Shown: one piece after another, positions 11,627 to 13,866 of the stretch | Layout: every line of letters starts with the position of its first letter | Numbering within the stretch: the stretch's first letter is position 1 | Assembly (NCBI GenBank): GCA_029717555.1 | Contig: JAMDHS010000038.1 | Location: forward strand, 62,001 to 126,000 | Reading direction: 5' to 3' | Length of the DNA stretch: 64,000 nt | Source of the DNA: Peribolospora baueri | Lineage: Eukaryota > Basidiomycota > Peribolosporomycetes > Peribolosporales > Peribolosporaceae | The notes under the pieces: model-generated | What the model saw: only the letters and a program-made list of their open reading frames with translations | Database searches by the model: none | What the model was told of the DNA's origin: nothing | Position numbers and translations under genes: made by a program

Positions 11627-13866
11627 ATGGTCTACAAGGTCGCTGACATCTCCCTCGCCGCCTTCGGCAGGAAGGAGATCGAGCTCGCCGAGGTCAGCCA
11701 GTTCGTCTCCTTTTCCGCTCGCCCGTAGTGCAGAGAAAGAGGAAATGAGCTGACCCCCATGCCTGTCACCCGCCGTCGCGGCGTCGTATCGACCTTGTAG
11801 CGCGAGATGCCCGGTCTTATGTACTTCCGCCGCAAGGTGGGCGTCGACTCCAAGTGGTCCTGCTACTCTTTATAGAGATTGCTCACCTTCGTCCCTTCAC
11901 CCCTTCCACAGTACTCCGCTTCCCAGCCTCTCAAGGGCGCCCGCATTGCTGGCTGTCTGCACATGACCATCCAGACCGCTGTGCTCATTGAGACCCTTGT
12001 CGCTCTGGGCGCTGAGGTCACCTGGTCTTCGTGAGCGTCCAGCTAGTCAGCCTAAAGGGACCTCACACTGGCTATTCGCCATGGCTATTCTGACGGCCTT
12101 TTCATCTATATCTTATTTCTCTCGACGCGAAAATTATTTGTGGCAGCTGCAACATCTTCTCCACGCAGGACCATGCCGCCGCTGCGTAAGTGTCGACTTC
12201 GCCGTGTGCCGATGGAGACAGGCGCAGTTTGGCTTCATTCTCACCGCCCCCTTTACCTTGCTTCAACAGCATTGCCGCTACCGGCGTCCCCGTGTTTGCC
12301 TGGAAGGGCGAGACTGACGAGGAGTACAACTGGTGCATTGAGCAGACTCTCAAGGGCTTCAAGGACGGCAAGCCCCTTAACATGATCCTCGACGACGGTG
12401 GAGACCTCACCTGGCTGGTGCACAACAAGTTCCCCGAGCTCCTTCCCGGCATCAAGGGTCTCTCCGAGGAGACCACTACCGGCGTGCACCACCTCTACCA
12501 GAACTTCAAGCTCGGCAAGCTCAAGTTGCCCGCCATCAACGTCAACGACTCGGTCACCAAGTCCAAGTTGTAAGTGTCTTTTCCACCATCCGCCGTACGC
12601 CGCCGAAGTCTCCTTCTCACGCATTCATTCTTTCTGCGTCCACAGCGACAACTACTACGGCTGCCGCGAGTCGCTCGTTGACGGCATCAAGCGTGCCACG
12701 GACGTCATGCTTGCCGGCAAGGTTGCTGTCGTTGCCGGCTTCGGTGACGTTGGCAAGGGTGTGAGTAATGGAATCTCATCCAGTCTGTCTGAATAGGATC
12801 GAGCTCGGCTCATCTCATGCCATTGCCTTCCTCTCCGACACCATCACAGTGCGCCGAGTCGCTCCGCTCTTACGGCGCCCGTGTGATTATCACCGAGATC
12901 GACCCTATCAACGCTCTCCAGGCCTCCATGGCTGGCTATGAGGTGAACGTCATGGACGAGGTGTGCCACTACGCCAACATCTTCGTCACCACTACTGGCA
13001 ACAGGGACATCATCGTCGGTCGCCACTTCGAGGCCATGCCCGAGGATGCCATTGTCTGCAACATCGGTCACTTCGACATCGAGGTCGATGTTTCCTGGCT
13101 CAAGGCCAACGCCGTCGAGGCCGTCAACATCAAGCCTCAGATGAGTGTCGCCTTTGATACGAATTCTGCTGATGGGGCCTGCTATCGCGACGGTCTCCTG
13201 CTGACTCTTGGTCTTTCTTTTTTTTCTCTTCCCGCGGCTTCCTGTCAGCACGTTGACCGCTTCACCATGAAGTCCGGTCGCCACGTCATTCTCCTCGCTG
13301 AGGGTCGTCTTGTCAACCTCGGCTGCGGTGAGTATACCAAGTCCGCGAGAATGGTCCCCTTATCGAAAGATTTCACTGATCTTGACTTGCACTTTGATAT
13401 CCCTCGCTTGTTTTTCCTGCCAGCTACCGGTCACCCCTCGTTCATCATGTCCGCCTCTTTCTCCAACCAGGTCCTCGCTCAGATTGCTCTGTGGACGGAG
13501 AACGAGAAGTACCCGGTGGGCGTTCACATGCTCCCCAAGGTGCTCGACGAGGAGGTTGCCTTCGCTCACCTCGAGCAGCTCGGCGTCAAGCTGGTAAGCT
13601 CCTGGACTTCTTTTCTTTGTTACCTTTGTGTTCGACCGTTTCGCAGGCTTGCTCTGTGGATGCGCACGTGCTCTTACACCGTCCACTTCCCGCCTGGTTT
13701 ACAGACCCAGCTCACGCCCGAGCAGGTCGAGTACTGTGAGTAGAAGGTCTCTGCACTTCGTACGGCCGAGTTTGCCAGCTGACACCTTGGCTCCGCTTTC
13801 GCTTCCGTTCCCTCAGCTGGCATCCCTGCCAACGGTCCCCGCAAGCCCGACCACTACCGCTACTAA
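11627..13866 (+). CDS. SAH1: S-adenosyl-L-homocysteine hydrolase
   Basis: Cytosolic NAD-dependent enzyme that splits S-adenosylhomocysteine into adenosine and homocysteine, relieving product inhibition of methyltransferases. Eleven exons: 11627..11692, 11801..11836, 11912..12030, 12147..12185, 12270..12569, 12646..12760, 12850..13140, 13252..13327, 13424..13593, 13705..13735, 13817..13866; total 430 residues, the normal family size. Seen: [33 protein letters not shown], the NAD-binding [24 protein letters not shown] and the C-terminal KPDHYRY. The exon 7/8 junction gives the invariant IKPQVDR only if the intron is removed as AT...AC (13141..13251). The last three long introns (111, 96, 111 nt) are all multiples of three without stops. 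A C/T-rich promoter and strong codon bias suggest high expression. Confidence 0.96.
13141..13251 (+). other. apparent AT-AC intron in SAH1
   Basis: The intron starts ATGAGT and ends TCAGCAC, leaving exon ends ...AAGCCTCAG and GTTGACCGC, which encode the invariant IKPQ-VDR of SAH hydrolases. A CTGAC branch-point-like motif at 13200-13204 followed by a long pyrimidine tract points to the major (U2) spliceosome rather than U12. A GT-AG alternative (GTCGCC donor at 13147, CAG acceptor at 13248) would insert Met-Ser-His in the conserved segment. Confidence 0.65.

Follow-up and report, generated by a model that had tools for sequence, protein, structure and literature searches.

The seventh intron of an S-adenosylhomocysteine (SAH) hydrolase gene of Peribolospora baueri very probably belongs to the U2-type, or type II, class of AT-AC introns. 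We infer that the major spliceosome removes positions 13141 to 13251 of the window, joining exon 7 directly to exon 8 in the RNA, with the A at position 13204 as branch point and with a contact between the A that opens the intron and the C that closes it. The window is the whole stretch of DNA that was analysed, 64,000 nucleotides taken from a genome assembly of 22.1 Mb in 178 contigs. The gene lies on the forward strand at 11627..13866, and has 11 exons, 10 introns, and 430 codons followed by a stop. In the spliced model, nine of the ten introns have GT-AG termini, and intron 7 is the exception.

The product of the gene is an adenosylhomocysteinase: the protein of the spliced model matches family TIGR00936 (ahcY) along its full length, profile positions 1 to 416 of 416, with a score of 659.9 bits for a cut-off of 497.6. 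Solved relatives in the PDB match the model across residues 2 to 430, and the protein has seven matches in its own genome, each of them inside the gene at 11627-13866. This is an essential housekeeping gene which, judging from its identity, is presumably highly expressed. The segment KPQVDR is uninterrupted in each of the 120 homologs listed, which are the best 120 of 8000 scored, and the best identity among them is 84%. The other protein that was tried, a mitochondrial processing peptidase, also reaches 84% at best among its listed matches, and the nearest listed proteins of both are mainly basidiomycete. A search of the literature found no paper joining the terms "AT-AC intron" and "adenosylhomocysteinase".

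The top match of the SAH hydrolase by bit score is an odd annotated model of 587 residues from the nematode Teladorsagia circumcincta (P0001), with 76% identity. It contains a partial internal duplication, with KPQVDR still in one piece, and is probably an artefact of the gene model or of the assembly. This protein was left out of the tree of SAH hydrolases, which took in the other 119 of the 120 listed matches. The tree, computed with a quick method, puts the Peribolospora baueri protein on a long branch whose placement is unsure.

The junction can be read from the protein. Exon 7 (12850..13140, forward strand) ends with CAG and the residues VNIKPQ, and exon 8 (13252..13327, forward strand) begins with GTTGACCGC, which reads VDR. 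Between them, intron 7 (13141..13251, forward strand) has 111 nucleotides, is in phase 0, holds no in-frame stop, and splits IKPQ from VDR in the context CAG/ATGAGT...CAGCAC/GTTGAC. We scanned all pairs of donors in 13090-13199 and acceptors up to 13299 that define introns of at least 41 nucleotides, a total of 12,705 pairs as counted from the loop bounds: exactly one of them, 13141/13251, yields the contiguous 17-letter protein segment, and its termini are AT-AC. As can be read from the sequence, this junction cannot be slid by one base. The score of the TIGR00936 profile, at its highest for AT-AC, drops to 654.2 bits if the same donor is joined to the AG that precedes the AC by three bases, to 652.1 bits for a GT-AG intron nested in the segment, and to 640.7 bits if the segment is retained. 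The original prediction had placed the intron at 13141..13251, from ATGAGT to CAGCAC, and had claimed that the excision gives a protein of 430 residues with an intact IKPQVDR: the coordinates are as it said, with the CAG of exon 7 ending at 13140, and the spliced model has that length and that segment. The GT-AG alternative that it had described, inserting Met-Ser-His, turned up in the scan at 13147-13248.

The splice signals can be compared with those of other introns of the same genome. A gene model was trained on 264 kb, namely the window and 200 kb of contig C90, starting from the nine GT-AG introns of the SAH hydrolase gene, which it recovered exactly after five rounds. Its 51 genes with scores above 40 provide a sample of 319 introns; the sample is partly circular, being self-trained on this genome, and its lower tail is cut off, since donors were accepted only above -6. 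The 5' splice site of intron 7, CAG/ATGAGT (13138..13146, forward strand), is one base off GTGAGT, the hexamer that the sampled donors show most often (103 of 319), and is complementary to U1 except at the first base of the intron. Scored without the terminal dinucleotide, it gets 8.1 bits, which is the 95th percentile of the 319 GT-AG introns. Position +5 of the donor is a G in 315 of these introns.

The length of intron 7 falls inside the range of 69 to 136 nucleotides spanned by the 5th and 95th percentiles of the sample, and the rest of its anatomy can be read in the same manner. A branch-point-like motif CTGAC occupies 13201..13205 (forward strand), and its A, at 13204, lies 47 nucleotides before the AC end. 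A CTRAY motif is present in 129 of the 319 sampled introns, and in these the distance from motif to end has quartiles of 27 and 46 nucleotides and a 95th percentile of 65. Because so few of the sampled introns show the motif, the assignment of CTGAC as the branch site is a soft one. Further upstream there is another motif resembling a branch site, CTGAT, whose A at 13172 is 79 nucleotides from the end of the intron. The CTGAC motif is followed by a pyrimidine tract (13206..13245, forward strand), 85% C+T and free of A, and there is no A between the branch A and the CAG, whose own A is at 13247. The 3' splice site is contained in CAGCAC (13246..13251, forward strand): the AC at 13250-13251 would be the end of the intron, and no AG other than that at 13247-13248 occurs downstream of the branch A of CTGAC. 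As acceptors both are middling: the AC gets 2.0 bits (29th percentile), the AG 2.6 bits (36th percentile). A donor that is GTGAGT with its first base changed, a CTGAC and a pyrimidine tract had all been part of the original prediction, and all are present.

During the second step of splicing, the first and the last base of an intron come into contact. In intron 7, U1 would pair with CAG/AUGAGU at each base except the first of the intron, and the first step would use the A of CTGAC. In the second step, the initial A would contact the final C of CAGCAC, in replacement of the G-G contact, and this contact would lead to the choice of AC over the AG three bases upstream. It has been reported that, in yeast double mutants, A-C can exclusively replace G-G (PMC8283771), and it has been argued that a C in the last position fits badly with a G in the first (PMC10711555). 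The A-C contact is known from published work on yeast and on mammals, and would extend to intron 7 by analogy: an intron that begins with G would naturally take the AG, and for one that begins with A, the AC is expected to win.

Some of our results go against the choice of AC, and favour an intron 13141-13248, which the original prediction had not mentioned, with the same donor and AT-AG termini, either alone or as a minor isoform. Its AG is the first after the branch, and the only one, and its score as an acceptor slightly exceeds that of the AC. With a penalty equal to that of GT-AG, the gene model gains 4.9 bits from AT-AG versus 3.7 from AT-AC, a comparison made by a model that knows no homologs; with a heavier penalty, the model kept the intron open and chose neither. 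Introns with AT-AG termini are also reported in Ganoderma lingzhi, where 21 are counted (PMC11590231). On the other hand, the product would read IKPQ-His-VDR, with one extra residue that is found in none of the 120 listed homologs and that lowers the TIGR00936 score by 5.7 bits, and the pairing of an initial A with a final G would be a mismatched one, as the work on double mutants suggests (PMC8283771). We hold AT-AG splicing to be unlikely. One may also conceive that CAGCAC is a tandem acceptor controlled by the first base of the intron, and that the donor with A is kept by selection rather than being a neutral accident: the A would then direct most transcripts to the AC, a small share to the AG, adding the His, and leave some open transcripts retained, adding 37 residues. 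If that were true, the three products would read out the fidelity of the second step in a methylation-cycle gene; this idea, too, has little probability in our eyes. The same extra His would result from an error of sequencing or assembly, in which the true donor is GTGAGT and the intron is a GT-AG intron ending at 13248. A single A-for-G error would suffice to create the donor ATGAGT, and the base is known from the assembly; however, IKPQ-His-VDR has no counterpart among the 120 listed homologs, restoring the protein would take another error, this one of three bases, and CAC follows only 6 of the 319 sampled introns. We consider such an error very unlikely.

The canonical reading must also be weighed, since the great majority of introns are GT-AG and the nested intron 13147-13248 (forward strand) keeps the frame. 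Its donor, AGT/GTCGCC, nevertheless gets -11.6 bits, less than any of the 319 sampled introns, the lowest of which is at -5.7 in a sample that accepts donors only above -6, and it inserts three residues, Met-Ser-His, that are found in 0 of the 120 listed homologs. On the donor score and the inserted residues we rejected this intron, to which we leave only a very slim chance. The scanned region holds 69 in-frame, stop-free pairs with GT-AG or GC-AG termini: most of them start at donors that come earlier, or use other acceptors, and remove part of the exons, and three GC-AG pairs, whose donors come later and whose end is at 13248, insert even more residues. There is finally the reading in which nothing is spliced, or in which retention is regulated, and the open segment is translated as an insert. 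The length of intron 7 is indeed 3 x 37 nucleotides, without a stop, and the unspliced gene stays open with 37 more residues; this is an ordinary property, shared by 34 of the 319 sampled introns, and the original prediction had not mentioned it. The segment itself does not look coding: read as codons, it gets -2.0 bits for its 37 codons, when stretches of equal length from the exons of this gene get at least 9.5, and no such insert exists in the 120 listed homologs. Translation of the retained segment is hardly credible.

If the termini are AT-AC, one must still ask which spliceosome removes the intron. The termini are compatible with a U12-type intron, removed by the minor spliceosome, and RNA genes of the U12 spliceosome are reported in one fungus, Cutaneotrichosporon oleaginosum (PMC7072748). 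The other signals do not agree: the donor of intron 7 misses 5 of the 8 positions of the U12 donor consensus ATATCCTT; in the intron, a U12 branch site (TTCCTTRAC-like) is matched at 5 of 9 positions at best, and none lies at the required spacing, about 11 to 13 nucleotides from the intron end (PMC3584512). Between 13204 and 13247 there is no A that could serve, and the pyrimidine tract is strong. One match to U6 snRNA (G000:C93:191006-191107, reverse strand) and one to U2 snRNA (G000:C104:55491-55680, forward strand) were observed in this genome. Genes for U11, U12, U4atac and U6atac were not found in the genome, a result of little weight because the same kind of search also missed U1 and U5. 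According to published surveys, Basidiomycota have no convincing minor introns (PMC10639083; PMC2846911). On motifs and branch spacing we rejected a minor intron, whose probability we put at next to nothing; since the U12 motifs are absent, their spacing wrong, and basidiomycete minor introns lacking in the surveys, U2-type is a much better reading of intron 7. The original prediction of a U2-type AT-AC intron is well supported by the conservation of the protein, the donor score, the geometry of the branch and the absence of U12-type motifs.

That prediction also called AT-AC introns very rare in fungi, which agrees with published rates of 0.014 to 0.019%: they represent 0.019% of annotated fungal introns (PMC7072748), and the manually corrected annotation of Ganoderma lingzhi has 13 of them, or 0.014% of about 92,000 introns (PMC11590231). 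Extrapolating from 319 introns in 264 kb to the 22.1 Mb of the assembly gives about 27,000 introns, of which about 4 to 5 are expected to be AT-AC. Intron 7 is thus rare, and not unexpected.

Scans of the 264 kb by class of termini, completed by inspection by eye, produced no second convincing AT-AC intron in that region. They also produced no surplus of AT-AC over the other classes, for which they gave many false candidates, and they are too noisy for a published rate this low. When the site thresholds were loose and the penalty heavy, 3 AT-AC candidates came out, intron 7 not being among them, versus an average of 4.3 for a class; when the thresholds were strict and the penalty equal to that of GT-AG, there were 5, including intron 7, for an average of 8.6 and a rank of 169 out of 256 classes. 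The strongest candidate besides intron 7, 43863-43973 on the reverse strand, has a gain of 9.0 and the donor context GAG/ATGAGC; it lies in gene 43562-48830, whose product we take to resemble a TRAPP II subunit. Judged by eye, a normal GT donor, GTGAGA, five bases upstream gives a simpler reading, and pairing this donor with an AG acceptor a little past the proposed AC looks like a better end for the protein. The three remaining candidates have gains of 0.3, 3.0 and 0.7 bits. A pattern search of the genome for AT-AC introns gave 39 matches, against 60 in the reversed control, and is uninformative at the length of intron 7: its gap of 60 to 90 bases excludes the 99 bases of intron 7 itself. In the first 200 kb of contig C90 of this genome (G000:C90), at about 181458-188865 in reverse-strand coordinates, several unrelated classes other than GT-AG each add more than 100 bits to the gene score, which suggests that a long gene is broken there, whether by a frame error, by an unusual intron or by a fault of the assembly.

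Read as a U2-type AT-AC intron, intron 7 is a clear new example of a rare kind that is already known in fungi. The known picture is unchanged, because the published rates lead one to expect a few of these introns in each fungal genome. Introns of this type are natural tests of the contact between first and last intron base, and gene finders restricted to GT-AG, including the self-trained model used here, misread conserved genes at such sites. The case of intron 7 is unusually clear: a single junction restores the highly conserved segment, and two competing acceptors, an AG and an AC, are separated by three bases. The intron could act as a natural reporter of the choice made in the second step.

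The typical donor of the U2-type AT-AC class is ATAAGT, and intron 7 differs from it in having ATGAGT. A close parallel in termini is with the type II introns of Caenorhabditis elegans, in which at least 42 AT-AC introns are judged real while minor snRNAs are seemingly lacking, and removal is thought to fall to the major spliceosome, as we propose for intron 7 (PMC3033335). Ganoderma lingzhi offers a likeness in another basidiomycete, where AT-AC introns are also very rare; the annotation of that fungus is based on full-length transcripts and RNA-seq, and that of intron 7 on sequence (PMC11590231). In a GFP reporter of Arabidopsis, a U2-type AT-AC intron is spliced and its product translated (PMC5473141, PMC5873924). 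This reporter is a plant transgene with three competing products, in which the AT-AC form makes up 17.5% and 23% of the transcripts: efficient splicing in the fungus should thus not be assumed. The two introns share a geometry in which the AC lies 3 nucleotides outside an AG and a GT-AG intron is nested in the AT-AC intron; the nested intron is really used in the reporter, whereas the nested GT donor of intron 7 scores very poorly. In both, the product of AT-AC splicing is the translatable one (PMC5473141, PMC5873924).
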